Assembly (NCBI GenBank): GCA_024278175.1
Contig: JAJRTS010000019.1
Span: forward strand, 1-56,782
Reading direction: 5' to 3'
Length of the DNA stretch: 56,782 nt
Source: Gemmatimonadales bacterium
GTDB lineage: Bacteria > Gemmatimonadota > Glassbacteria > GWA2-58-10
This document shows positions 1 to 56,601 of this stretch, piece by piece; the stretch's first letter is position 1, and the number at the start of each line of letters is the position of its first letter. Under the pieces are notes generated by a model, which searched no databases, was not told where the DNA came from, and saw only the letters and a program-made list of their open reading frames with translations. The position numbers and the translations under genes were made by a program.

Positions 1-735
1 CCTACACGGCTTTGCCGTCGCGGGACAATGCTGAGCGTGCGGAGAATGTGCGCCAGGCGCTGGAGTGTTACCGGGCGGCTTTGGAGATATACAAGAAGGA
101 AGAGTATCCTGTGGACTATGCAATGACCCGGAACAACCTGGGCAATGCCTACACGGCTTTGCCGTCGCGGGACAATGCTGAGCGTGCGGAGAATGTGCGC
201 CAGGCGCTGGAGTGTTACCGGGCGGCTTTGGAGATATACAAGAAGGAAGAGTATCCTGTGGAATATGCAACGGCTCAGAACAACCTGGGCAATGCCTACA
301 CGGATTTACCGTCGCGGGACAATGCAGAGCGGGCGGAGAATGTGCGCAAGGCGCTGGAGTGTTACCGGGCGGCTTTGGAGATATACAAGAAGGAAGAGTA
401 TCCTGTGGAATATGCAACGGCTCAGAACAACCTGGGCACTGCCTACAGGGCTTTGCCGTCGCGGGACAATGCAGAGCGTGCGGAGAATGTGCGCAAGGCG
501 GTTCAGTGTTACCGGGCGGCTTTGGAGATATACAAGAAGGAAGAGTATCCTGGGGACTATGCAATGACCCGGAACAACCTGGGCAATGCCTACAAGGATT
601 TGCCGTCGCGGGACAATGCAGAGCGGGCGGAGAATGTGCGCAAGGCGGTTCAGTGTTACCGGGCGGCTTTGGAGATACGTAAGAAGGAAGAGTATCCTCA
701 GGATTATTGCTTTACAGCGGCCAATCTGGGGTTGA
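1..735 (+). repeat. Five tandem 147-bp coding repeats
   Basis: The period is exactly 147 bp, with units beginning near 1, 148, 295, 442 and 589. The first four units are almost identical at the nucleotide level, synonymous positions included. The fifth diverges after about 100 bp. This degree of identity suggests recent expansion or gene conversion, and the array may continue upstream of the window. Confidence 0.9.
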
Positions 736-43000: not shown

Positions 43001-46000
43001 TCAGTTGCCGAACAGTTCTCTGAGCCGCTCCACGTCAGGGGTTCCCGGTGTCGCCAGCAGCTTGCGGTATGCGATGAGCCGAAGCATCGAGGCGCCCAGC
43101 TCGTTGCCGGGGTATTCCCGCAGTAAGCGGCCGTAAACCTGCCCGGCGCGCTCCAGCTTCCCGGCCCGCAGCAGTGATTCACCGATCATATGCAGCACCA
43201 ACGGCGTCTCGGGCAACCCGTCATCGCCGGTGCCGTTGCCCAGCGCCAGCGCTTTTTCGAAAGCCTCCGCCGCCTCCGTCCAGCGACGCGCGGCGCGGAA
43301 TGTTTCGCCGAGATCGTAATAGTGAGCCGCCCGCTCCGGCTCCAGCGCAATCAGCGCGCGTTTGATCTCCACAGGTCGGGAGAAATCAGGCGGGTCAATC
43401 AAGGATGCCCCGTGGCGCTCTGCCAGCGCCAGTGCCGGCGGGTACTCCAACTCAAGTAATTTCAGCGGCTCGGCTCCCGTGGACCGCAGGCGAGTGAGCA
43501 CCTCCATTGCCTCGGCGTATTTTTTTCGCTCGGTGAGCAGACGCACCATCAGCTCCAGCCCCTCCGGATGCTCCGGCGCTCGCTCCAACGCGTCGGCAAG
43601 GGCGGAAAACACCAGGTAGGTCATCCCGGAGACCATCTGGTAGCGTGCTGTCTCCACCAGCTCATCAGCGGTAGGTGGGTGATCCCTGACGTAACGCGCG
43701 AGAAAATTATCCGCCCCGGCCAGCCGGTACTCGGTTGGCAGGTCCACCCGGTCGGCGTTGAAAAAGCCGCGGGGGGCGCTGTACTCCACAATCGGGAAAT
43801 CATCGGAGTTGACCGGCCCGATACCGGCCCACTGCCGAATACCATCCTCATCAAACACCTGTGTCGTAAGCAGGGTAAAAAGACTGGTGATGCCGATCCG
43901 CTCAAGGTCGGCGGCCACTTCCGGGCCGGCCATTCGCTTGGCCATCTCCTCGAAATTGGCCTCGACAGGTTCCAGTGAGCCGATCAGCAGCAGGTCGTTG
44001 TTTTCCACCGAACTAAATCCCACGGCATGGGGAAACGTGCGGGTGAACGTGATCAGGATCGTGCGCAGTACGCTCTCGTCCATCTCGTAGAGGTGGATCC
44101 ACTGGCAGATCAGTCCGCCGGGGGCCAGCCGACGGGCGCAGTCTGCGTAGAACTGCTCCGTGTAGAGGTTGCCGATTCCGGCGATCCAGGGATTCGAGGG
44201 CTCGCTGGTGATTACGTCCCAGCGGCTGTCGTCGCGGAACAGGTAATTACGGCCGTCGTCGATAACCAGCTCCGTACGCGGGTCTTCCCAGTAGCGGCGG
44301 TTGATGTCCTCGAACAGGCGGCTGGCCTCGGCCACGCCGGGGCTGATCTCCACGCAGACCAGCCGCTCAAGCTCCTCGTGCGAGAGCGCTGCCCCGCAGG
44401 TGGCCCCGCTGCCCGCGCCGATTACCAGCACGCGCCGCGGGGCGCCGTGCAGCAGCATCGGAAGGTGGGCCAGCAGGTACTGGGTGTTCATGTCGAACTC
44501 GTTGGAAGCGTCCACCTTGCCGTTGACCCGCAGCATCAGGGTCTCGCCGTCGCGCTCCACGCTGACCGTGGTGCTTACTCCCTCGCGGTAGTAAACGAAT
44601 TCCCGTTCGTGGGCGCTGCGGTAGAAATTCCCGGCCGAGGAGCCGGGGCTGGCGGAGTGGTAGCGGAATGCCCCGCCGGTGAGCAGGTGACGGTCCCAGC
44701 CGGGAGCGAGCAGGAAATAGGCGATCAGGGCAACGGCGCTGGCCGCGTAGACGGCCACTTTGAGCCTGCGCCCGCCGCCAATTGCCGCCAGCAGGGTCAG
44801 GCAGGTGAGCAGATTCAGCACGACGGCTGTTTCGATAGTGAGCTTGATCCCCAGCAGCGGCACCATCGCCAGGCCGCAGAGCGCGCTACCCGCGATATTT
44901 CCCAGCGTGTTGAGCGCATAGACTCCGCCCACCCTGCCGGCCACCTCGCTCATCCCCCCGGTGGCCAGACGCGCCACCAGCGGGAACCCCATCCCGAACG
45001 CCGTGGCGGGAAGGAGCATCACCAGCAGACAGACCACGAACTTGAACGCCTCGTGGGCCTCGTAGTTGAATACGATCACCTCGCGCACGGAGAGGAAGAA
45101 CAGCGGCAGGCGGCTGTAGAGCGGCAACATCGCCAGCACCGAGAGGGCGATAACCCCCTGCAGCACGGCGAACGCACGGGCCGGGTTGGTTATCCGGTCG
45201 ATCAGCATACTGATCAGCAGCCCGCCCAGGGCTATCCCGCTGATAAACGCGGCCAGCATCAGCGCGAACGAGTAAGTGCTGCTGCCCAGCACCATCGAGA
45301 GCACCCGCGTCCAGCTGATTTCGTAAACCATCGCGGTAAACCCGCTGACGAAAATCCCGGCCAGGGCCAGCGTGACAACACGGCCCGAGAGCGGCTCACC
45401 CGGCGGAGGGTCCGCACTACTGGTGGACGCGGCCGGCGCCTCGCCGTAGACGGGTTCGTCCAGGCGGCCGCGAAGCCCCAGGGCCGCCATGCCCACCAGG
45501 ATGTTGATCGCGGCGGCGATAGCCGTGGAGAAGGGCAGGCCCAGCGAGGGGATCATCCAGAACGCGGCGGCCAGGGTGCCCACAACGGCGCCGGTGCAGT
45601 TGATGAAATACAGCCGGCCGGTGACTTTGCCCACCTCGGGCAGCCGCTTGCTGAGCGCCTTGATCAGCACCGGCAGCGTGCCGCCCATCAGCAGGGTGGG
45701 CACGATCAGCAGCAGCATCGAAAGGGCGAACTTGGCGACCAGGCTCAGCACGCCGGTGGGGTCCACGGCGCCGTAGACCCACAGCATCACGGAGCGCTGG
45801 ACACCCAGCAGGTTGTCGAACGCCAGGCAGTAGACGCCGATAGCGATTTCCATCCAGCCGTAATAGGTCAGCAGGGAGTGCTTGCGGTTCGGGTTGTCCG
45901 CCAGAGAGCCGAACAGTTTGCTGCCCGCCGCCAGGCCGGCCATGAACGCGGCGAGCACCACCGTGACCGCGTAGGTGGTATTGCCGAAACCCACGGCGAA

Positions 46001-46129
46001 CCGTCGCATCCAGATAATTTCGTAGACAAGTCCGCAGAAACCGGAGAGGAAGAACAGGGCGTAAAGCGCGAGGGCAACCGGGCCGATATCCGCGCCGCCG
46101 CCGCTTTGCCGGGAGCGAAAGTCGTTCAT
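43001..46129 (-). CDS. Fused MFS-like / spermidine synthase-like protein with C-terminal TPR
   Basis: This 1042-residue membrane protein has three parts. Residues 15-480 have around 12-14 hydrophobic helices in two halves, split by a Pro/Ser linker (about 225-240). Residues 500-790 form a SAM-dependent methyltransferase/spermidine-synthase-like domain: LVIGAGSGATCGAALSHEEL, VCVEISPGVAEAS, VIDDGRNYL and ITSEPSNPWIAGIGNLYTEQFY. Residues 870-1040 include TPR-like repeats (ALEPERAAHYYDLGETFRAARRW). The acidic catalytic site of true spermidine synthases is replaced by SEPSNP, so the activity is unknown. Fused MFS/SpeE proteins are widespread and poorly characterised. It follows the sugar-isomerase genes on the same strand. 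Confidence 0.82.
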   Translation of the reverse strand: MNDFRSRQSGGGADIGPVALALYALFFLSGFCGLVYEIIWMRRFAVGFGNTTYAVTVVLAAFMAGLAAGSKLFGSLADNPNRKHSLLTYYGWMEIAIGVYCLAFDNLLGVQRSVMLWVYGAVDPTGVLSLVAKFALSMLLLIVPTLLMGGTLPVLIKALSKRLPEVGKVTGRLYFINCTGAVVGTLAAAFWMIPSLGLPFSTAIAAAINILVGMAALGLRGRLDEPVYGEAPAASTSSADPPPGEPLSGRVVTLALAGIFVSGFTAMVYEISWTRVLSMVLGSSTYSFALMLAAFISGIALGGLLISMLIDRITNPARAFAVLQGVIALSVLAMLPLYSRLPLFFLSVREVIVFNYEAHEAFKFVVCLLVMLLPATAFGMGFPLVARLATGGMSEVAGRVGGVYALNTLGNIAGSALCGLAMVPLLGIKLTIETAVVLNLLTCLTLLAAIGGGRRLKVAVYAASAVALIAYFLLAPGWDRHLLTGGAFRYHSASPGSSAGNFYRSAHEREFVYYREGVSTTVSVERDGETLMLRVNGKVDASNEFDMNTQYLLAHLPMLLHGAPRRVLVIGAGSGATCGAALSHEELERLVCVEISPGVAEASRLFEDINRRYWEDPRTELVIDDGRNYLFRDDSRWDVITSEPSNPWIAGIGNLYTEQFYADCARRLAPGGLICQWIHLYEMDESVLRTILITFTRTFPHAVGFSSVENNDLLLIGSLEPVEANFEEMAKRMAGPEVAADLERIGITSLFTLLTTQVFDEDGIRQWAGIGPVNSDDFPIVEYSAPRGFFNADRVDLPTEYRLAGADNFLARYVRDHPPTADELVETARYQMVSGMTYLVFSALADALERAPEHPEGLELMVRLLTERKKYAEAMEVLTRLRSTGAEPLKLLELEYPPALALAERHGASLIDPPDFSRPVEIKRALIALEPERAAHYYDLGETFRAARRWTEAAEAFEKALALGNGTGDDGLPETPLVLHMIGESLLRAGKLERAGQVYGRLLREYPGNELGASMLRLIAYRKLLATPGTPDVERLRELFGN

Positions 46130-46164
46130 GGGGAAAGTCCGTCCGGCTGGGGGAGAAGGGTTGA

Positions 46165-46195
46165 GCGGGGGCGAAGCGGGCTGCTTCGCCCCCGC
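46165..46195 (-). terminator. Hairpin between isomerase and SpeE-like genes
   Basis: GCGGGGGCGAAGC pairs with GCTTCGCCCCCGC (13 bp) around a five-base loop. It has only a weak T-run on the minus strand, so it may attenuate or terminate the isomerase operon. Confidence 0.5.
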
Positions 46196-46207
46196 CGCTC
46201 TAGTTGG

Positions 46208-47098
46208 TCAGGCTCTGTATTTAAGCAGAAGGTCGCGGCAGGCGCGCACGTTGTCGTAGTTCCTGCGCTCCTTGCTGCCGGCCTCGATACCCATGAATCC
46301 ACGATAGCCGGCGTCGAACGTGATCTGGACCATCCGGTCCAGGTCCCAGGCCTCATGCTTGCCGTTCTCGTCGAAATCCCGGCACTTCACGCTGACCGCC
46401 TTGGCGTAGGGCATTGCCATCTCCAGTGCCTTGTAGCGGTCCACTCCCTCCTCGAAATTACCGTAGTCCGGCAGCAGGCCGAACCGGGGATGGTCCACCT
46501 CTTTGGCCAGCATCACGAAATACTCGGGGATGGAGCTGAAACCGCCGTGGTTTTCCACGGTCACGTTGATCCCGGCCTGGTCGGCGTACTCACAGAGGAA
46601 GTGGTAACTCTCGGCGCAGCGTTTGACCCGTTCCTCGTTGGAGCCGGGTGTGCGCGTGCGTGCGTTGCCGCGGATGGCGTGGCAGCCCAGGAACCAGGCG
46701 ATATCGATCCATTTATGGTGCTGGCGGACCGCTATTTCACGCTCTTTTTTCTCGTTGTGCGACATGTCGCCGTCGTCGTCGCACATGATCAGCACCAGCT
46801 TGACCCCGTAGTCGTCGGCCCGTTGTTTGAGGTCCTTGAGGTAGTCGTAGCGCGGCAGCGTGAAGAAGCTGTTGACGAACTCCAGGCCATCGAGGTTGAA
46901 GTCCTCGCGCACGATCCGCGGCAGGTCCAGGTTGGTCCAGGTTTTGTTGAACCAGGGCTGGATCGACCAGGCGGCCAGCGAGATTTTAAAGTTGTACTTC
47001 TTCATCTGCTCTGCCATCGAGAACACGGGGCTCAGCGCCGCCGCGCCGCCGGCGGCCATGGCCGAGCGGATGAAACCCCTGCGGGTGATGATTCTCAT
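46208..47098 (-). CDS. Tat-exported sugar phosphate isomerase/epimerase-like protein (paralogue 2)
   Basis: This is a xylose-isomerase-like TIM-barrel enzyme exported by Tat. The signal is RRGFIRSAMAAGGAAAL (ATG 47098). The mature domain starts with ISLAAWSIQPWFNKTWTNLDLPRIVREDFNLDGLEFVN. Metal-binding acidic and histidine residues are expected in VTVENHGGFSSI, LLPDYGNF, AVSVKCRDFD and GFMGIEAGS. The protein is very similar to the next upstream gene (same length, shared motifs), so the two arose by tandem duplication. Substrate is unknown; relatives act on inositol-like or keto-sugars. It lies downstream of an MFS gene and opposite the Gfo/Idh/MocA pair. Confidence 0.86.
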   Translation of the reverse strand: MRIITRRGFIRSAMAAGGAAALSPVFSMAEQMKKYNFKISLAAWSIQPWFNKTWTNLDLPRIVREDFNLDGLEFVNSFFTLPRYDYLKDLKQRADDYGVKLVLIMCDDDGDMSHNEKKEREIAVRQHHKWIDIAWFLGCHAIRGNARTRTPGSNEERVKRCAESYHFLCEYADQAGINVTVENHGGFSSIPEYFVMLAKEVDHPRFGLLPDYGNFEEGVDRYKALEMAMPYAKAVSVKCRDFDENGKHEAWDLDRMVQITFDAGYRGFMGIEAGSKERRNYDNVRACRDLLLKYRA

Positions 47099-47132
47099 TA
47101 GAGATACTCCTTCAGATCGGAAATTAAGAGTA

Positions 47133-48023
47133 TTATTGGTGTTTTTCCAACAGCTTCTTACAGTACAACACGCCCTCGTAAGGCGTGTTCTGTGTGCCCT
47201 CGTACTCGATCCCCACGAACCCGTTGTAGCCCGCGGCCAGCACGATCTCAATCATCCTGTCCAGGTCGAAGGCCCCGTGCTTGCCGTCGGCGCTGAAATC
47301 GTAACACTTGGCGCTGACCGCCAGGGCGTAGGGCATCAGCTTGCGCAGGGCGTCGTACCTGTCGATCTCCGGCGGGAAATTGCCGAAATCAGGCAGGGTG
47401 CCGAAACGGGGGTGGTTCACTATTTTCATTACCGCGATCAGCTTTTCGGGGATGGAGCTGAAACCGCCGTGGTTCTCGATAGTCACTTCCATGCCGCACT
47501 GGTCGGCGTACTCCATCAGCTTGCTGTAGCTCTCGGCGCAGCGTTTCACCCGGTCGTCGATCGTACCGGCTTTTACGTAGCCGGCGTTGGCGCGGATTGC
47601 GTGGCAGCCCAGGAAATCGGCGATATCGATCCACTTGCGATGGTTGATCACCGCCTGACGGCGTTCGGCCTTATCGGGATGGCTCATGTCGCCTTCGCCG
47701 TCGACCATGATCAGCACCGGCGTAATCCCGTAATCGGCGCAGCGCTTTTTCAACTCCTGCAGGTAGCGGTATCTGGGCAGTGCAAAATAACGGTTGACGA
47801 ACTCGATACCCTCCAACCCAAAATCCTGGCGCACGATCCGCGGCAAGTCAAGATTGGTCCAGGTGCTGTCGAACAGCGGGTTCAGCGACCAGGCGGCCAG
47901 GGAAATCTTGAATTTTTTCCCGTTTACCGCGGCCCGGGCCGTGGCGGGCAGGGCGCCTGCAAACGCTGCCGCGGCTGCCGCCGCTCCCGTGGCCATGAAC
48001 TGCCTGCGATTTAGCTGGCTCAT
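47133..48023 (-). CDS. Tat-exported sugar phosphate isomerase/epimerase-like protein (paralogue 1)
   Basis: This is the tandem paralogue of the preceding gene. The Tat signal is NRRQFMATGAAAAAAAFAGALPATARA. The barrel begins ISLAAWSLNPLFDSTWTNLDLPRIVRQDFGLEGIEFVN and shares WIDIADFLGCHAIRANA, VTIENHGGFSSI, LPDFGNF, SAKCYDFS and GFVGIEYEG with its partner. Sharing of the acidic metal-binding positions suggests both are catalytic. The two may work on related intermediates. It is in an operon with the MFS transporter, 18 bases away. Confidence 0.87.
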   Translation of the reverse strand: MSQLNRRQFMATGAAAAAAAFAGALPATARAAVNGKKFKISLAAWSLNPLFDSTWTNLDLPRIVRQDFGLEGIEFVNRYFALPRYRYLQELKKRCADYGITPVLIMVDGEGDMSHPDKAERRQAVINHRKWIDIADFLGCHAIRANAGYVKAGTIDDRVKRCAESYSKLMEYADQCGMEVTIENHGGFSSIPEKLIAVMKIVNHPRFGTLPDFGNFPPEIDRYDALRKLMPYALAVSAKCYDFSADGKHGAFDLDRMIEIVLAAGYNGFVGIEYEGTQNTPYEGVLYCKKLLEKHQ

Positions 48024-48041
48024 AAATACACTCCATTGCTC

Positions 48042-49247
48042 TTATGATTTTGAAACTGCATCGGCCGAGGCCGGAACGGACTGGAGCCGGGCTTTAACCC
48101 GGCGGCTGATATTTACCTGTATTAATAACATCATACCCGCGCATCCCGCCACTATTATCAACCCTGCCTGCATCGAACCAGCGGCGGCCGCCGTACCCAC
48201 CGCGGCCGAGATCGACACTCCTCCCAGTACGCTGGCGGCGATAACCATTGAAAAAATGGTGCCTGTATAGCTGGTGAAAACCCTGCCGGCGCTACCCAGG
48301 GTACTGGGGAATATCGGCGCGAAACACAGTGCCGAGAACCACAGCGCGAACGCCGCCAGGTAAAGGTTGCCCGCAAAAGCGAACACGGTCAAGCCGATCA
48401 GACTTCCGACCGAGCAGCGCAGCACCATCGTCCGGCCCGGGATATTATGCAGCAGGGTGCCCGCCAGCAGGCGGCCGGTCATCAGCGCGCCCCAGTAGCC
48501 GGCCAGCAGCAACTGGTCCAGCGGGGGGCGCAGGCCCCATCTGCCCGCCACGGCGGGTCTGCTCCAGACTCCCATGCTGGCCTCCAGGCCGACATAGAAG
48601 AAAATAAGCGTGCAGAACAGGATAACCAGCGGGTCGTTCAGCGCCCGCCCGGCATCGGCCAGACGGAAATCCTCCACGTTCACGTTGGCCGGAAAACGAG
48701 CCACGGAAAACATCACCGCCGGCAGCAGGCAAGCGAAAGTGGCGAATTTGAGCAATACTCCCATACCCGGCCCGCCCAGCAGCCAGCTTCCCGCCAGCGG
48801 CATGATAACCGCTCCGGCTCCGAAAAAGAGGTTGCCCACGTTGAGCATCCGCTCGGGGTTGCCGCGGTGAAGGTGGTTGAGCAGCGTGTTCACCCCGCCG
48901 TTGAGGCAGGCCGCCCCGACGCCCATTGCGAACATCAGGGCGCAGCTTTCCACCAGCGAGTCGGCAAAGCCGAGCAGCCACATCGAAGCGGCGCAGACCA
49001 GGCCGCCGGCCACCAGGACCGGCCGCTGTCCAAAACGGTCGATTATCGGCCCCACGGCGAACAGCATCAGGAATGTGGCCCCGCCCATGCTGAGTAAAAA
49101 CAGGCTGCCGATTTCCGCCACGCTGGCGCCGGTGCGCCCGGCGAAAGTTTCGAGTCCCACGCCGATCAACGCGAAAGTAAGACCCATCACCAGGTAGCCG
49201 GAGCAACATGCCGCTGTAAGGTAAAAAACAGAGAGAGATGATGCCAA
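48042..49247 (-). CDS. MFS transporter, probably sugar or sugar-acid
   Basis: This is a 12-helix major facilitator protein of 401 residues. Loop motifs include GPIIDRFGQRPVLVAGG after helix 2 (MFS signature A) and GAACLNGGVNTLLNHLHRGNPERMLNVGNLFFGAGAVIMPLAGSWLL, a pattern of the FucP-type sugar symporters. The start is TTG at 49247, with AGGAG six bases upstream. It is first in a reverse operon with two sugar isomerases, so it probably imports the product or precursor of that pathway. Confidence 0.85.
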   Translation of the reverse strand: MASSLSVFYLTAACCSGYLVMGLTFALIGVGLETFAGRTGASVAEIGSLFLLSMGGATFLMLFAVGPIIDRFGQRPVLVAGGLVCAASMWLLGFADSLVESCALMFAMGVGAACLNGGVNTLLNHLHRGNPERMLNVGNLFFGAGAVIMPLAGSWLLGGPGMGVLLKFATFACLLPAVMFSVARFPANVNVEDFRLADAGRALNDPLVILFCTLIFFYVGLEASMGVWSRPAVAGRWGLRPPLDQLLLAGYWGALMTGRLLAGTLLHNIPGRTMVLRCSVGSLIGLTVFAFAGNLYLAAFALWFSALCFAPIFPSTLGSAGRVFTSYTGTIFSMVIAASVLGGVSISAAVGTAAAAGSMQAGLIIVAGCAGMMLLIQVNISRRVKARLQSVPASADAVSKS

Positions 49248-49324
49248 GTGACGCTCCTGAAAAGAGGGATGGCACGGTTGCCGGCAAGCTGGGAGGCAAG
49301 AGCGAAACCGATCGCCGGCGCAGG

Positions 49325-49356
49325 CGAATAATATTCGTCGCGCCGGGCTATGTCAA
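49325..49356 (-). promoter_or_regulatory. Sigma-70 promoter with overlapping palindromic operator for the MFS-isomerase operon
   Basis: On the minus strand, TTGACA (49351-49356) and TATTAT (49328-49333) are 17 bases apart, a near-consensus promoter. CGAATAATATTCG (49325-49337) is a perfect palindrome that covers the -10 region, so a repressor bound there would block transcription. The predicted start is near 49321, about 74 bases before the MFS start codon. The remaining 49357-49590 gap holds no recognised gene. Confidence 0.7.
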
Positions 49357-49590
49357 GCGGCGGCAAGTGGATGGGAATGATATTCAAACTTGATGTTGGT
49401 AATAAACTTACAAGGCCGGCCCTGTGAGCCGGACGATGAGATGGGAAAAATTCCTTGCTACAATATTGGGCCAGAGTTAGTTTAGAAATTGTGCCGTCCC
49501 GGCACGCACCGCAATAAATCCTTAATGGCTTGGCATGTAATAAGTTAAGCTGGTTGTCATTATTTACACTATCAGATGGGAGTGCGTTCA

Positions 49591-50085
49591 GTGGCAGATA
49601 AAAGCGGCTTGGGCGAAACACTGAAAAACTACTCGGGAGTGCAGACATTCCTGATTGCGTTCCTGCGGGTGGTTATCGGTTGGCATTTTCTTTATGAAGG
49701 TTACGTAAAACTCAGTTCAGACGCCTGGTCGGCGGCCGGCTATCTGCGGGCGGCCCCCGGTCCGTTTGGTCCGATGTTTGAATCGATGGTGAGTTCGGCG
49801 TCGATGGTGGGTGTGATCGACGCTGTGATGGCCTGGGGTCTGACCCTGGTCGGTATCCTGCTGATCCTGGGTTTGTTCACCAGGAGCGCCCTGCTTGTGG
49901 CGGCTCTGTTCCTGCTGATGTTCTACCTGTCCAACCCGCCGTGGGTGGGCGTGCAGTTCATGCCGGGCGAGGGCAGCTACATGGTCGTCAATAAAAACCT
50001 GGTCGAGATGGCGGCCGTGCTGGTGCTGCTGGTATTGCCCTCTGGAGCGATGTGGGGTTTCGACCGGTTGTTCGCCAGGCGGTAG
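49591..50085 (+). CDS. DoxX-family membrane protein
   Basis: This is a small integral membrane protein of four hydrophobic helices. DoxX-type features are the first helix LIAFLRVVIGWHFLYEGYVKL, followed by a helical hairpin AVMAWGLTLVGILLILGLFTR and a third and fourth helix. GTG at 49591 has GGGAG eight bases upstream; ATG 49576 is the alternative. DoxX proteins accompany quinone-linked oxidation systems such as thiosulfate:quinone oxidoreductase. Here it precedes two Tat-exported Gfo/Idh/MocA genes and may hand their electrons to the quinone pool. That role is inference. Confidence 0.8.
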   Translation: MADKSGLGETLKNYSGVQTFLIAFLRVVIGWHFLYEGYVKLSSDAWSAAGYLRAAPGPFGPMFESMVSSASMVGVIDAVMAWGLTLVGILLILGLFTRSALLVAALFLLMFYLSNPPWVGVQFMPGEGSYMVVNKNLVEMAAVLVLLVLPSGAMWGFDRLFARR

Positions 50086-50178
50086 CGGCTCGAGAGTGCA
50101 GAGTACTACACCTTACGATAATCCGTTCAAATGCTTCACCCCCTGAGATGAAGCCTGCCGAAACCAGGAGTGATACTG

Positions 50179-51828
50179 ATGGCTGATAACGATAAAACAT
50201 CCGGCGTAAACAGGAGAGATTTCCTGAAAGCCGCTTCCACCGTCCCGGTGCTGGGTGCTTTCGCCCTCTCTCTCAAGGCGAAGAAGAAGCAAGACACGCT
50301 GGCCCGGGAGGAAATTCTCTCGATCGGCCGCGAGGGCGCGCAAACCAACCCGAACGTGCTCAAAAGAAACTACCAGCGCAAGGGCAGCGCCAACGACACG
50401 CTCAATATTGCGATTGTCGGCTGCGGCGGCCGGGGTAAAAGCCTGATGCGCGCCGCCGGTTTTCATCCGCCCGACGAGGACGGCGCCGGTGGCCTGGAGG
50501 GTACCGAGAAGCTGAACATTCGCCTGGTGGCTGTCTGCGATCTGTTTACGCCCAGTGTTGAATGGGCCGTGGCCGCCTCCGGCGGAACCGCCAAAGTGTA
50601 CGAGACTTATCAGGAGTTGATGGCGGACCCGGACATCGACGCCGTGGTCTGCGCCACCCCCGACCATTACCACTCCGCGGTGACTATCGCCGCGGCCGAG
50701 GCGGGCAAGCATATTTATGTCGAAAAATGCATGACCAAAACCATCCCCCAGGCCTACGCCGTGCGCGACGCGGTCAAGAAAAACGGGGTTATCTTCCAGC
50801 TCGGCCATCAGAACCGTAACAGCAACCGTTACGATTCGGCGATGGAAGTGATCGACAAGGGGATGCTGGGCCACGTCAGCCTGATCCAGTGCTACACCAA
50901 CCGCAACAGCCGTAACGGAGCCTGGGTCTACAACATCCCCAAGGAACAGGGCCCCAAGAGCGCGGCCTCCGGGCCCCGTAACCTGGACTGGGAACAGTAC
51001 ACGGCCAATACGGTTCAGCGGCCCTACGATCCCAACCGCTTTTTCCGCTGGCGCTGCTTCTGGGACTACGGCACCGGTCTTTCCGGCGACCTGCTGACCC
51101 ACGAACTGGATGTGATCAACATGGTGATGAACATGGGGATCCCCAGCAGCGCCACCGCCTCCGGCGGCGTGTACCATCACAAGGAATACACCACGCTGAT
51201 GACCGCCCAGGGCGAGCCGCTGGGCAGTGACGCGCCGGTGCCCGAGGGCGCCCTGCCGCGTCCGGACGTGCCGGTGTTGCGCCGCGAGGTACCGGATGTC
51301 TACCAGGTGGTCTACGAGTGGAAAGACCGCGACATGACCGTGGTCTACAACGCCACGCTGAGCAACAACTGGCACCGCGGCCAGATTTATCTGGGCGACG
51401 AGGCCACGATGGACCTGACCGGCGGTGTGGACGTGTATGCGGACCCGCGCAGCCATAAATACCGCAAGTGGCTCGACAACGGCAAGGTGAAACCCGATGA
51501 GCCGATGATCTCCTTCCGCAACGTGGCCGGCAAGGGTATCGAGGCGATCACCGCCGCCACCGCCCAGTGGACCGTGGCCAAGGGCCTGCTCTACACCTAC
51601 CGCGGCGGACGGCTGATCAACACCACCTACCTGCACATCAAGGACTGGATCGATCATATCCGCGACAACAACCCCAAGACGATGTGCGATATCGACGACG
51701 GGTTCCAGGAAGCGATCACGGCCCACATGGCCACCTACTCCTACCTCAACGGTACGCGGGTGAACTGGAACGAGGAGGCCCAGGAGGTGGAGTTCGAACA
51801 CGAGCCGAAAATTCCGGCGCTCAGTTGA
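50179..51828 (+). CDS. Tat-exported Gfo/Idh/MocA oxidoreductase (paralogue 1)
   Basis: This is a predicted periplasmic NAD(P)-type sugar oxidoreductase. The Tat motif NRRDFLKAASTVPVLGAFALS is at the N-terminus. The nucleotide-binding part starts at IVGCGGRGKSLM, then CDLFTPSVEWAVAASGGTAKVYETYQELMADPDIDAVVCATPDHYH. The catalytic Lys is in VEKCMTKTIPQA. The C-terminal domain carries GLSGDLLTHELDVINMVM and RGGRLINTTYLH. The EK motif reads EKC rather than the usual EKP. At 549 residues it is longer than classic members (about 350), with inserts typical of Planctomycete-like Tat relatives. ATG at 50179 has GGAG eight bases upstream. Confidence 0.9.
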   Translation: MADNDKTSGVNRRDFLKAASTVPVLGAFALSLKAKKKQDTLAREEILSIGREGAQTNPNVLKRNYQRKGSANDTLNIAIVGCGGRGKSLMRAAGFHPPDEDGAGGLEGTEKLNIRLVAVCDLFTPSVEWAVAASGGTAKVYETYQELMADPDIDAVVCATPDHYHSAVTIAAAEAGKHIYVEKCMTKTIPQAYAVRDAVKKNGVIFQLGHQNRNSNRYDSAMEVIDKGMLGHVSLIQCYTNRNSRNGAWVYNIPKEQGPKSAASGPRNLDWEQYTANTVQRPYDPNRFFRWRCFWDYGTGLSGDLLTHELDVINMVMNMGIPSSATASGGVYHHKEYTTLMTAQGEPLGSDAPVPEGALPRPDVPVLRREVPDVYQVVYEWKDRDMTVVYNATLSNNWHRGQIYLGDEATMDLTGGVDVYADPRSHKYRKWLDNGKVKPDEPMISFRNVAGKGIEAITAATAQWTVAKGLLYTYRGGRLINTTYLHIKDWIDHIRDNNPKTMCDIDDGFQEAITAHMATYSYLNGTRVNWNEEAQEVEFEHEPKIPALS

Positions 51829-51862
51829 GGCCGGCCGGTAAGAGTATAACCTGTTGAAGCCA

Positions 51863-51909
51863 GGTGCTCCCCTGAATGTGGTTGATACGCTTCAGGGGAG
51901 TGCCTTTTT
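51863..51909 (+). terminator. Rho-independent terminator between the Gfo/Idh/MocA paralogues
   Basis: A 14-bp stem (GGTGCTCCCCTGAA / TTCAGGGGAGTGCC, two G-U pairs) with a 14-base loop is followed by TTTTT. It may reduce read-through into the second paralogue. Confidence 0.8.
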
Positions 51910-51957
51910 AAGTGCTGATGATAACTGTGAGCAAATCGGGAAAACGAGGCTATCGAT

Positions 51958-53622
51958 ATGGGCAACAACCTGGACCGCCGGGATTTTCTGAAAGCTGCCG
52001 CCGGGACTCCGATCCTGGGGGCGTTCGCTTATACCGCAACGCGTAAGGGGAAGGTGGACGGGAGCCGGCGCGAGGAGCTTCTGGAGCAGGCGGGCGGCCC
52101 GGAAAAGACGCATCCTTTCATGGAGCGCAAGTACAAGAAGCTCCCTTCCTATCAGGGCAACAGCGATACGATCAATATCGGTATTATCGGCGCGGGCAGC
52201 AGGGGCAAAGACCACCTTCGCGCCCTGGGCTTGTTCGTGCCCGAGGAGCTAACCGCCGAGGTCAAGCAGGAACTTGCCGGCAGGGAGCCGCTTAACGTGC
52301 GCTGCACCGCTGTCTGCGACCTCTATCAGCCGAATGTCGAGTTCGCCGTGCGGGCCTCCGGCGGCACGGCCAAGGCGTACAGGACCCACCAGGAACTGCT
52401 TGCCCAGAGCGATGTGGACGCGGTGGTCGTGGCCACCGACGACCACTGGCACGCCCCAGTGGCCAAGGCCGCTGCCGAGGCGGGTAAGCATGTCTACGTG
52501 GAAAAATGCATGACCCAGAACATCCACGAGATCTACGATCTTCGCGATGCAGTCCGCAAGGCAGGCATTGTGTTCCAGTTGGGGCATCAGAACCGCAACA
52601 GCGCGGAGTACGATTCGGCGATGAACGTGGTGGCCAGGGGGATGCTGGGCGATATCAGCTTGATCCAGTGCTACACGAACCGCAACTCCAACAGCGGAGC
52701 CTGGTTCCGTGACGTGCCCAAAATCCACGGCCCGCTGGACGCCGCTTCCGGGCCTCGTAACTTGGATTGGGAACAGTACGTGTCCAACAGGGAGCACAGG
52801 CCCTACGATCCAAACCGCTTTTTCAACTGGACCTGTTTCAAGGATTACAGCACGGGTTTGTCCGGCCAGTTACTCTCCCACGAGATGGACCTGATCAACA
52901 TGATCATGGAGCTGGGGATTCCCGCCTCCGCTTTCGCCTCGGGAGGCACGTACTGTTATAAGCAGTACCAGGCGATTGTCGATGCGAACGGCGAGCCGCT
53001 GGGCACCGATGAGCCGGTGCCGGCAGGGGCCCGGACGCGACCGGACGTGCCGCTGCTTGTGCGCCAGTGGCCCGATGTGCTCCAGGTGGTCTACGAGTGG
53101 CCGGACCGGGGCCTGACAGTGGTCTACGACGCCACGCTGGGCAGCCAGTTCAACCGCGACCAGATTTACCTGGGTAGCGAGGCCACGATGAAATTCGACG
53201 GGGGGGTGCAGATCTACGCCGACCGTCGCAGCGCACGCTATGCCGACTGGCTCGCCAGCGGCAGGGTCACACCCGACAGGCCGATGATCTCTTACCGCAA
53301 TCTCTCGGGCAAGGGAGTGGAGGCTCTCACCTCCGCCACCGCCGCCTGGAGCCTCTCGAAAGGCTTGCTCTATACCTACCGGGGTGGGCGCAGAGTTAAT
53401 ACCACCTACCTGCACCACAAAAACTGGCTCGAGCACATGCGCGCCAACGACACCGACACGCTGTGTAATATCGGGGACGGTTTCCAGGAGGCGGTTACGG
53501 CCCACATGGGCACGGCCAGCCTGCTCACGGGCCGCAGGGTCCATTGGAACCCCGAGACCGAGCAGATGACCACCGGCGAGGGCGAGCCGCTGGAGCAGTT
53601 CCGCGATGGCTGGCAGCTTTAG
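51958..53622 (+). CDS. Tat-exported Gfo/Idh/MocA oxidoreductase (paralogue 2)
   Basis: This paralogue of the preceding gene has the same architecture. The Tat signal is DRRDFLKAAAGTPILGAFAY. The nucleotide-binding motif is IGIIGAGSRGKDHLRALG, the catalytic Lys is in VEKCMTQNIHEIYDL, and the C-terminal barrel-like domain has GLSGQLLSHEMDLINMIM. It differs in loop lengths and probably in substrate. ATG at 51958. The tandem pair mirrors the tandem isomerase pair on the other strand. No quinone or cofactor partner is encoded here apart from DoxX. Confidence 0.9.
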   Translation: MGNNLDRRDFLKAAAGTPILGAFAYTATRKGKVDGSRREELLEQAGGPEKTHPFMERKYKKLPSYQGNSDTINIGIIGAGSRGKDHLRALGLFVPEELTAEVKQELAGREPLNVRCTAVCDLYQPNVEFAVRASGGTAKAYRTHQELLAQSDVDAVVVATDDHWHAPVAKAAAEAGKHVYVEKCMTQNIHEIYDLRDAVRKAGIVFQLGHQNRNSAEYDSAMNVVARGMLGDISLIQCYTNRNSNSGAWFRDVPKIHGPLDAASGPRNLDWEQYVSNREHRPYDPNRFFNWTCFKDYSTGLSGQLLSHEMDLINMIMELGIPASAFASGGTYCYKQYQAIVDANGEPLGTDEPVPAGARTRPDVPLLVRQWPDVLQVVYEWPDRGLTVVYDATLGSQFNRDQIYLGSEATMKFDGGVQIYADRRSARYADWLASGRVTPDRPMISYRNLSGKGVEALTSATAAWSLSKGLLYTYRGGRRVNTTYLHHKNWLEHMRANDTDTLCNIGDGFQEAVTAHMGTASLLTGRRVHWNPETEQMTTGEGEPLEQFRDGWQL

Positions 53623-53677: not shown

Positions 53678-54334
53678 ATGGCGGCGACAGCAAAAAATAA
53701 AAAACTGAGAGTGGCCGTGCTGGCCAGTGGCGGTGGCAGCAACCTTCAGTGCCTGCTCGACAGGTTCCCCCCCGGCGATGATTCGCCAGCGCCCGCGCAA
53801 GTTGTGCTGGTGGTTTCCGACCGTCCGGGAGCGGGCGCTCTGGAGCGTGCGGCCAGGGCCGGAGTGCATGGCGAAGTGGTGTCGCCCTCGGAGTTCGCCG
53901 CCGCGGAGCTCTTTGGCGCGCGTCTGCTCGAGCTGTTTGCCCAGGAGCGGATCGGGCTGGTGGTGCTGGCCGGGTATCTGAAGTTGGTTCCGCCCAACGT
54001 GGTGGCCCGCTACAGCAACAGGATGATTAATATCCACCCGGCGCTGCTGCCCTCGTTCGGGGGCAAGGGGATGTACGGCAGTCGGGTTCACGAGGCAGTG
54101 CTCCGCTTCGGGGCCAAGCTCTCCGGGCCGACTGTACATTTCGTCAACGAACACTACGATCGCGGACCGGTGATAGCCCAGCGCGCGGTGCCGGTTTATT
54201 TCGAGGACAGCGCCGGACAACTGGCCGCAAGGGTGCTGGAGCAGGAGCACGAACTGCTGCCGGAGGTTGTGGATTTGATCGCCACCGGCCGGGTGGAAGT
54301 ATCCGGCGAACGTGTGCGGATCATACGCGATTGA
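53678..54334 (+). CDS. purN: Phosphoribosylglycinamide formyltransferase
   Basis: PurN transfers a formyl group from 10-formyl-THF to GAR, the third step of purine synthesis. LRVAVLASGGGSNLQCLLDRF is the phosphate-binding N-terminus. The catalytic Asn and His are in RMINIHPALLPSFGGKGMYG, and the Asp is in HFVNEHYDRGPVIAQ. At about 218 residues from ATG 53678 it is of normal length. The start is preferred to the open upstream frame, which has no ribosome site. purH follows 32 bases later, so both purine genes are in one transcript. Confidence 0.95.
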   Translation: MAATAKNKKLRVAVLASGGGSNLQCLLDRFPPGDDSPAPAQVVLVVSDRPGAGALERAARAGVHGEVVSPSEFAAAELFGARLLELFAQERIGLVVLAGYLKLVPPNVVARYSNRMINIHPALLPSFGGKGMYGSRVHEAVLRFGAKLSGPTVHFVNEHYDRGPVIAQRAVPVYFEDSAGQLAARVLEQEHELLPEVVDLIATGRVEVSGERVRIIRD

Positions 54335-54366
54335 TTCGGTTTAACTCAAGTACTGCGGAGTCAGCA

Positions 54367-54972
54367 ATGGACAGAATCAAGATCAAAAGGGCGCTGATCA
54401 GCGTTTCCGACAAGAGTGGGGTGGTGGAGCTGGCCCGGGCTCTTGAGGGGTTCGGCGTGGAAATTCTGTCAACCGGTGGCACGGCGCGCCACCTGGCCGA
54501 CTCCGGCGTGACAATCCGCAGTGTCGATCAATTTACCGGCCACCCGGAGATGCTCGATGGCCGGGTCAAGACGTTGCATCCCAAGGTCCACGGCGCACTG
54601 CTGGCCCGGCGTGATCTGGAAGACCACATGCGCCAGTGCGAAAAAATGGGCGTGGAGCTTATCGACATGGTGGTGGTCAACCTGTATCCGTTCGAGCAGA
54701 CTATCGCCCGCGAGGACGTAACACTGGAGCAGGCGATCGAGCAGATCGATATCGGCGGGCCGACCATGCTGCGCAGCGCAGCCAAGAATTACACCGCGGT
54801 GGCGGTGGTTACCTCGCCGGACCAGTACGCCGGGGTGCTCGAGCAGTTACAGGTCAACGAAGGATCGCTGGACCTGGCGCTGCGCTACGATCTGGCGCGG
54901 GCCGTGTTCCGTCGCACCAGCGAGTACGACCGCCGGATTACCGAGTACCTTGCCTCGGTAAAACCGGAATAA
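54367..54972 (+). CDS. purH: IMP cyclohydrolase domain of PurH (transformylase domain absent)
   Basis: IMP cyclohydrolase closes the FAICAR ring to IMP. The sequence matches the N-terminal PurH domain: KRALISVSDKSGVVELARALEGFGVEILSTGGTARHL, then RVKTLHPKVHGALLARR, VVNLYPFEQT, and IGGPTMLRSAAKNYTAVAVV. It stops after ITEYLASVKPE (201 residues). Normal PurH (about 510-520 residues) continues into the AICAR transformylase domain, which is not here: the next genes are a DUF3098-like gene and a tRNA. ATG at 54367 has GGAG seven bases upstream. It is either a stand-alone domain with the transformylase elsewhere or a truncated gene. Confidence 0.9.
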   Translation: MDRIKIKRALISVSDKSGVVELARALEGFGVEILSTGGTARHLADSGVTIRSVDQFTGHPEMLDGRVKTLHPKVHGALLARRDLEDHMRQCEKMGVELIDMVVVNLYPFEQTIAREDVTLEQAIEQIDIGGPTMLRSAAKNYTAVAVVTSPDQYAGVLEQLQVNEGSLDLALRYDLARAVFRRTSEYDRRITEYLASVKPE

Positions 54973-55301: not shown

Positions 55302-55378
55302 GGGCGCTTAGCTCAGATGGTTAGAGCGCCTGCCTTACAAGCAGGAGGTCACTGGTTCGAATCCAGTAGCGCCCACCA
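55302..55378 (+). tRNA. tRNA-Val (anticodon UAC)
   Basis: A complete cloverleaf is visible. The acceptor stem pairs GGGCGCT with AGCGCCC; the D arm is GCTCAGATGGTTAGAGC. The anticodon stem CCTGC/GCAGG encloses loop CTTACAA with anticodon TAC (55336-55338). The T arm contains GGTTCGAATCC. Discriminator A and encoded CCA follow. It is the likely attachment site of the element that begins just downstream. Confidence 0.95.
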
Positions 55379-55398
55379 TTATTAGATCCATGTAGGAC

Positions 55399-55434
55399 GC
55401 GGGTTTGCGGTAGAGCGCAGGCCCGCATTTTTTT
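55399..55434 (+). terminator. Terminator downstream of tRNA-Val
   Basis: GCGGGTTTGCG pairs with CGCAGGCCCGC (two G-U pairs) around a six-base loop, followed by A and seven T residues. Confidence 0.8.
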
Positions 55435-55473
55435 GCTCAAAATAGAGCCGTGTGACTACTTTTTCGACGGATG

Positions 55474-56601
55474 TCATTCTCCCACCGCCTTATTCTCAAT
55501 CTCGGCAGATTGTTTCTTGGGAGAAAGAAATTCGTCCAGCACTCCGATCTGGCTCTCCAGGTGCTCGGGAGACTGATGGGCGTATCGTTGGGTAGTCCTA
55601 ACGTGTGAATGCCCCAAAATCTTCTGCACCGCATAAATATCAGCACCACCCTGCACCATCCAGGAAGCAGCGGTGTGACGCAGGTCGTGAAAGCGAAAAT
55701 TCTTAATGCCAGCTCTTTGCAATGCTGAGGCAAATGAACGCCTTACGTTATCCAGTCTACTTCCGGTTCTTGGGGAAGGAAAAACATACTCACTTTTACT
55801 TGTCTTCCTTCGCCTTGCCAGCAGCTCAAAAACCGTGCGGTTCATCCGAATATTTCGCCGCTTTTCGCCCTTCCCGATCAAAGTGATCTCTCCAAACTTG
55901 AATCGCTCATTGATCACCACGTCATTCCAGGTAAGTCCGAATATCTCGGACTTCCTCATTCCGGTAGCCAGGGCAAAGATGACAATATCGCGCAAGTGTG
56001 ACCGAGCAGCCTCAATCAATCGTTCGGCCTCTTCAGGAGTGAGATATCGTTCCCTTATTGGAGCCTCTCTTAAAAGCTTTAGACCAACGAGGGAATTTTT
56101 CTCGATATTATCCCACTCTACGGCTCTTGATAGGATGCCTTTCAAACAAGCTACTTCCCGGTTGACGGTTGCCTTACTGGCCCCTGCCTTACGATTGGCC
56201 ATATATGCTTGAACCTTAACCTTGGTAATTCCATCAAGGCGATCTTTGCCGAACACGGGAAGCAAATGACCCAGACTGGTATTATACGACTCCTGCATCT
56301 TCTCACTCTGATGTTCCCCATGCAGAGTCATAAAGGTGGGAACAAACTCTTCCAGAGTAAACATCTCGGCAGTATCGCTATCATCCTTACCAAGAAGTCT
56401 TTCCTGGATTTCCACTTGCGCAAAATCTGAACCAACTTCTCTCGGGTCAATGCCTGATTTGACTAGCAAGCGATACTCATGCAAAAGGGCAATAGCCTCA
56501 TCTCTGCGTGATCCTACCGGTTCTCGTCTCCTTTCTTTCTTGCCGTTAAGGTTGATGTAGTAGTCAAGCCACCAAATATCTTTGCGTTTGTACACGGCCA
56601 T
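55474..56601 (-). CDS. Tyrosine recombinase / phage-type integrase
   Basis: This is a site-specific recombinase. The N-terminal AT-hook-like arm-binding part begins MAVYKRKDIWWLDYYINLNGKK. A SAM-like core-binding domain follows at about 85-170, then the catalytic domain. Catalytic residues are Arg in ATGMRKSEIFGLTW, Lys in GKGEKRRNI, His-Leu-Arg in HDLRHTAASW, and His and Tyr in LGHSHVRTTQRYAHQS. At 375 residues it is complete. It points toward tRNA-Val, which is 95 bases beyond its stop. Base composition is clearly lower in GC than the rest of the window, supporting horizontal acquisition. The element probably extends past the right edge. Confidence 0.93.
   Translation of the reverse strand: MAVYKRKDIWWLDYYINLNGKKERRREPVGSRRDEAIALLHEYRLLVKSGIDPREVGSDFAQVEIQERLLGKDDSDTAEMFTLEEFVPTFMTLHGEHQSEKMQESYNTSLGHLLPVFGKDRLDGITKVKVQAYMANRKAGASKATVNREVACLKGILSRAVEWDNIEKNSLVGLKLLREAPIRERYLTPEEAERLIEAARSHLRDIVIFALATGMRKSEIFGLTWNDVVINERFKFGEITLIGKGEKRRNIRMNRTVFELLARRRKTSKSEYVFPSPRTGSRLDNVRRSFASALQRAGIKNFRFHDLRHTAASWMVQGGADIYAVQKILGHSHVRTTQRYAHQSPEHLESQIGVLDEFLSPKKQSAEIENKAVGE

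Follow-up and report, generated by a model that had tools for sequence, protein, structure and literature searches.

Gene content of the block

What does a divergent gene block do in which two kinds of putative sugar-processing enzymes each occur as a tandem pair of paralogues, together with a membrane protein of the DoxX family? The block lies at positions 43,001–53,622 of the window, that is, of the whole 56,782-nucleotide stretch of a Gemmatimonadales genome analyzed here, and an initial annotation had read it as a periplasmic oxidation-isomerization pathway for two related substrates with DoxX as a possible electron outlet. The gene content on which this was based (an MFS carrier and two isomerase-like proteins, hereafter Iso, on one strand; DoxX and two Gfo/Idh/MocA proteins, hereafter Gfo, on the other) was confirmed by open reading frames and Pfam, with E values of 6e-27 and 3e-22 for AP_endonuc_2 in Iso2 and Iso1 and of about 2e-18 for GFO_IDH_MocA in GfoA and GfoB (Table 1). 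Read away from the divergent region, the minus strand carries MFS, Iso2 and Iso1, separated by gaps of 18 and 34 bp, then a hairpin, which is real as annotated, and the SpeE-like gene; the plus strand carries DoxX, GfoA and GfoB, followed by PurN and a short PurH. A shared operator between the two gene sets had been supposed, but we found no conserved palindrome in the divergent region.

Table 1 Features of the block and their positions in the window
Feature	Positions	Strand	Remarks
SpeE-like: fused MFS/spermidine-synthase-like protein	43001-46129	minus	Spermine_synth E 4e-17; C-terminal TPRs
Strong hairpin between Iso1 and SpeE-like gene	46130-46207	minus	14-bp stem; -34 kcal/mol for 78-nt gap
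Iso1, paralogue of Iso2 (58%)	46208-47098	minus	Start at 47098; AP_endonuc_2
Iso2, Tat-exported AP_endonuc_2 TIM barrel, 4ovx family	47133-48023	minus	AP_endonuc_2; PDB 4ovx E 7e-68
MFS carrier	48042-49247	minus	MFS_1, E 4e-19; position kept across family
Divergent promoter region	49248-49575		328 bp; TTGC...TTTA-like element before DoxX partly conserved
DoxX-family membrane protein, module core	49576-50085	plus	PF07681 28.7 bits vs cut-off 23.6
GfoA, long Gfo/Idh/MocA dehydrogenase, module core	50179-51828	plus	PF01408; twin-arginine N-terminal anchor (putative); start 50179
EAITAAT in GfoA	51541-51561	plus	Resembles ApbE FMN-attachment motif D-x-x-[S/T]-G-A-[S/T]
GfoB, paralogue of GfoA (60%)	51958-53622	plus	Gln replaces Asp of Asp-x3-His pair
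EALTSAT in GfoB	53320-53340	plus	Same ApbE-like motif as in GfoA

The genes flanking the block have features of their own. PurH is split: an IMP-cyclohydrolase part of about 200 aa lies by PurN (54331-54972 of the window), the AICAR-transformylase part is on a different contig (G000:C69:9362-10237, G000 being the window's own genome), and the short form is kept in all six family genomes. Further on (55302-56601), a tRNA-Val (TAC) precedes a tyrosine integrase that is convergent to it and lies where the contig ends; this is a likely boundary of an integrated element.

Conservation in the family and copy number of the paralogues

A search for the gene order in related genomes, as the initial annotation had suggested, found the block in five other genomes of the family, where PurH(short)-PurN-Gfo-DoxX faces MFS-Iso-SpeE-like-pilin genes (loci L026, L027 and L028, with L030 plus L020 and L031 interrupted by contig ends). 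As this order is the same in all five, the block is, judged by gene order, an inherited unit conserved across five genera of the family. The Gfo type of the window was restricted to this family among 395 genomes of the phylum searched at E <= 1e-80. At the contig end of L031 (6013-6444), the start of a Tat-Iso merges into an alpha/beta-hydrolase-like sequence, possibly an assembly chimera.

The SpeE-like protein has a membrane domain, a spermidine-synthase-like domain and TPRs in 1042 aa, and its gene stands beside pilin genes in the family. The annotation had counted this gene as part of the block, but it lies beyond the strong hairpin and, while adjoining Iso in G000, G004, G001 and G003, it is absent after Iso in G002; it is thus probably a neighbour, not a member of the module.

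The annotation further held that the two pairs serve two substrates, and had stated that scattered or unlinked pairs in relatives would speak against this. Gfo and Iso copy numbers vary independently, being 2 + 2 per locus in G000, 2 + 1 in G004, 1 + 2 in G001 and 1 + 1 in both G003 and G002. The second copies of G003 lie on other contigs with unrelated neighbours: a GfoB relative on C180, without DoxX, has an RND/TetR set and a histidine kinase as neighbours, and next to an Iso1 relative on C133 are a GGDEF/EAL protein and a subtilase. GfoB is otherwise present in the loci of G000 and G004. In trees, of which we used for Gfo only the relations inside the family, the outgroup sequences being wrongly framed, both duplications are older than the split of these genera. 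This age, and the finding that GfoB occurs only where Iso1 does (3/3 genomes), would fit two matched sets, GfoA-Iso2 and GfoB-Iso1, each for one of two related substrates; however, Iso1 occurs without GfoB in G001 and both Gfos go with one Iso in G004, so that together with the scattered copies of G003 we regard such matching as improbable. The pairing was rejected after the copy-number counts and the trees, and the additional Gfo and Iso copies are better described as old duplicates, each retained independently of the other.

DoxX and the long Gfo form a constant pair

In all five genera of the window's family, the long Gfo is immediately preceded by DoxX. We searched two further phyla with a Gfo profile, and among Gfos above the score threshold applied the same arrangement was present in 14/14 genomes with a long Gfo (E <= 1e-100) out of 396 of the Acidobacteriota group (the phylum of G397, the genome of locus L003) and in 8/8 out of 396 of the Bacteroidota group (the phylum of G400, Chitinophaga, the genome of L006), the two genes often overlapping by 1-8 bp in both groups. 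By gene order, therefore, DoxX and Gfo form a pair that holds without exception in the loci of all three phyla. PF07681 was matched by 23/23 DoxX partners at E <= 0.01; hydropathy gives the DoxX of the window 3-4 hydrophobic segments, and R26, H32, E36, G37, K40 and E139 are invariant (alignment A4). Identity is 39% over 549 residues between GfoA and the Gfo of L085, and 45-47% for DoxX in L083 and L085. Across the 1.53 Mb sampled from the window's genome, no match to the DoxX profile fell outside the window, and 25 other Gfo-like frames have no DoxX partner. In the Bacteroidota group the pair stands without the other genes of the module, and the sugar assignment is weaker there for this reason.

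A 3.2-kb contig with MFS, DoxX and a Gfo of the window-family type (L103, G867:C377) was found in a genome from the phylum of G395; it may be a misplaced contig or a recent transfer.

The Gfo/Idh/MocA family includes the Tat-exported glucose-fructose oxidoreductase GFOR, and a closed redox cycle of this kind, in which one sugar is oxidized and another reduced by the same bound cofactor while DoxX only assists assembly or anchoring, would agree with GFOR being among the PDB matches of the Gfos and with the second Gfo in the window and in larger operons. Yet DoxX is paired with Gfo in about 29 genomes of three phyla, often with overlapping genes, loci with a single Gfo are common, and GFOR itself has, to our knowledge, no DoxX partner, which makes a closed cycle unlikely.

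Gfo proteins resemble glycoside 3-dehydrogenases

The window's Gfos belong to the Gfo/Idh/MocA family (PF01408 67 bits vs cut-off 24), with the catalytic Lys in an EK motif; E182-K183 is invariant and D304/H308 conserved. NF058561, the model of the BT_2158 glycoside 3-dehydrogenase, was matched by 23/23 Gfos (best E 3e-42), GfoA and GfoB scoring 128.1 and 107.5 bits where the cut-off is 750. The nearest PDB entries of the Gfos are 8tdf/8tdh and DgpA, and the best NCBIfam and PDB neighbours of GfoA are glycoside 3-dehydrogenases. IolG models also match 23/23 Gfos, weakly, as would be expected if the module served inositol or polyol metabolism in the manner of IolG/IolE, but these scores stay under their cut-off and, for GfoA and GfoB, under the glycoside 3-dehydrogenase model; with the extracytoplasmic signals and the 3-keto-disaccharide hydrolase neighbours in relatives, this leaves an inositol or polyol role very doubtful.

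GfoB and its relatives read GLSGQLLSHE where the others read GLSGDLLTHE, so that Gln replaces the Asp of the Asp-x3-His pair, as it does in one Bacteroidota-group Gfo (L129). GfoA and GfoB may thus not be equivalent enzymes.

Twin-arginine motifs were found in 4/4 Iso and Gfo proteins, as annotated, though the signals are of two kinds: the Iso proteins have ordinary cleavable Ala-x-Ala sites, while in most Gfos the motif is followed by a hydrophobic stretch of 13-18 residues and then Lys/Arg, with no convincing cleavage site, unlike in Iso. This suggests that the Gfo segment is an uncleaved, Tat-inserted membrane anchor close to DoxX.

Iso proteins and the four-enzyme inventory

Iso2 belongs to the 4ovx-type TIM barrels, matching over 260 aa with TM 0.85-0.93 and rmsd 1.4, and its model (pLDDT 89.5) has as fold neighbours 4ovx and then the C-glycoside beta-eliminases DgpB-C. 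We compared the family with the Mn beta-eliminases CGE/OGE by the metal ligands (His/Glu, Asp, His, Glu) and the catalytic His: E183-x-H185, D212 and E273 align, whereas the position of the His essential to these enzymes (PMC10628242) is occupied by Ser237 in 15/15 proteins. "Isomerase" is a fold name only, and fold and gene neighbours of the Iso family point to 3-keto-glycoside chemistry. The annotation is supported in that the module would oxidize sugar outside the cytoplasm and DoxX is linked to the dehydrogenase.

Two Gfos and two Isos might also form one pathway of four steps, with a dehydrogenase, an eliminase, a hydratase and a reductase, as in levoglucosan and C-/O-glycoside degradation. 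The same inventory occurs in the levoglucosan cluster lgdA, B1, B2, C (PMC7676230) and in the OGE/HYD pathways (PMC10628242), and the Asp of the Asp-x3-His pair is lost in GfoB. Against this, identity within the paralogue pairs of the window is 58-60%, but LgdB1 and LgdB2 have no marked similarity, and one Gfo and one Iso per locus suffice in relatives; a four-step pathway is therefore a possibility to which we give little weight.

Gene neighbourhoods in other phyla

In the Acidobacteriota group, a search with Iso showed that L083 and L085 have Iso divergent from ApbE-DoxX-long Gfo(-MFS), and Iso homologues lie near or divergent from this operon in L104, L112 and L113 as well. The operon further holds a Nuc_H_symport MFS, a second Gfo and a PF06439 3-keto-disaccharide hydrolase. 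An Iso homologue adjoins PF06439 in L003, and another, in L007, stands beside a GMC dehydrogenase, gluconate-2-DH subunit 3, MFS, Gfo and AP_endonuc_2; in L107 (3538-5082), an AP_endonuc_2 TIM barrel is fused with PF06439 in one 514-aa protein. The window's genome has 12 PF06439 and 17 AP_endonuc_2 matches, and neither PF06439 nor ApbE occurs within the window cluster. The cluster includes ApbE in 11 of the 13 assessable Acidobacteriota-group loci; none was found near the DoxX-Gfo pairs of the Bacteroidota group, nor in 1.53 of the 4.18 Mb of the window's genome.

A motif resembling the ApbE site

ApbE flavinylates extracytoplasmic redox proteins at a motif D-x-x-[S/T]-G-A-[S/T] (PMC12052999). 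Gfos of the DoxX-linked clade carry [D/E]xx[T/S/A][S/T/A]A[T/S], for example DAVTTAT, DTVTSAT or DGISSAT, in a segment that the nearest Gfos with no DoxX partner do not have; among the 25 other Gfo-like frames there was one chance match, at another position. In the motifs of the window, Glu replaces the Asp of the published one and Ala or Ser its Gly, while in other phyla D is retained and S/T stands in place of G. In ApbE substrates, changing Gly to Ala left about half of the flavinylation, and Asp changes had minor effects (PMC12052999). The segment is helical in the predicted fold of GfoA, a poor model (pLDDT 55) on which, for this reason, we rest no structural claim. With a match that is near without being exact, and with no ApbE close to the genes of the window, we consider flavinylation of the DoxX-linked Gfo possible rather than likely.

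A bolder proposal, which we put forward as doubtful, is that these Gfos form a new class of ApbE substrates, with FMN on the terminal Thr/Ser of [D/E]xx[T/S]xA[T/S] relaying electrons from the NAD(P)H held by the enzyme to DoxX and onward to quinone; if true, a Gfo-type, quinone-reducing glycoside dehydrogenase would be in use in at least three phyla. A literature search, mostly outside subscription journals, gave no paper with both DoxX and ApbE, and the eLife flavinylation survey makes no mention of DoxX or Gfo.

Proposed function

The NF058561 matches, the PDB neighbours, PF06439 in the operons, the neighbours of Iso and the PF06439/AP_endonuc_2 counts point to 3-keto-glycoside chemistry for the module. 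Taken as a whole, the block is best read, and somewhat probably so, as a periplasm-facing glycoside dehydrogenase, probably acting at C3, whose electrons leave via DoxX and whose keto-sugar is taken over by Iso. The long Gfo would be exported by Tat with NAD(P) already bound and be kept anchored by its N-terminus, and would act on the periplasmic side by oxidizing a sugar or glycoside at a hydroxyl, most likely that of C3. As a periplasmic enzyme is cut off from the cytoplasmic NAD pool, we infer that the reduced cofactor is discharged via the adjacent DoxX, most simply to quinone. Iso, also exported by Tat, would then act on the keto-sugar by elimination, hydration or epimerization, and the MFS carrier would import the resulting product. 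Against this reading stand the Gfo scores far below the NF058561 cut-off, the lack of PF06439 and ApbE in the window cluster, and the missing His metal ligand of known eliminases in Iso; DoxX has in general no established function, and no site for a cofactor or a quinone was identified.

As DoxX accompanies an exported sugar dehydrogenase throughout, electrons from extracytoplasmic sugar oxidation may reach the membrane by a route not described so far. Many exported Gfo dehydrogenases exist in several phyla, and with a dehydrogenase that is constantly paired with DoxX, and in one group with ApbE, the reoxidation of their bound NAD(P) outside the cytoplasm becomes testable, while DoxX, a family that is annotated but little understood, gains a specific partner.

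Comparison with known systems

In the thiosulfate:quinone oxidoreductase DoxDA, a small membrane protein of the DoxX/DoxD type takes part in quinone-linked oxidation; in contrast, the partner here is a sugar dehydrogenase, and DoxD is matched by only 6/23 DoxX partners, weakly. The dehydrogenase of LacABC is of the GMC type, whereas the module of the window has a Gfo/Idh/MocA enzyme and DoxX, with ApbE in some relatives, and no GMC flavoprotein with a small subunit is found among the proteins of the block. LacABC, the periplasmic lactose 3-dehydrogenase that in Caulobacter works with a DUF1080 (PF06439) 3'-ketolactose hydrolase, is nevertheless the closest described example of 3-keto-glycoside chemistry (PMC9007349).

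Dehydrogenases of the BT2158 type (NF058561; 8tdf/8tdh) align with the Gfos over the Rossmann domain and the central region, but the Gfos of the window, at about 550 aa, differ in the N-terminal anchor, an additional stretch at the C-terminus that holds the AT motif, and the DoxX partner. We know of no DoxX in the DgpA/DgpB-C pathway. DgpA/DgpB-C and OGE/CGE share with the module a Gfo-type 3-dehydrogenase and an AP_endonuc_2 TIM barrel in which E-x-H, D and E align, while Ser stands at the position of the essential His ligand in Iso and DgpB-C is a heteromer (PMC10628242). The levoglucosan cluster LgdA-B1-B2-C likewise combines two dehydrogenase-type and two sugar-isomerase-type enzymes, although its B1 and B2 are dissimilar and no DoxX is reported (PMC7676230). 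Set beside these systems, what is new here is an extracytoplasmic glycoside oxidation that would be built on a constant DoxX-Gfo pair.
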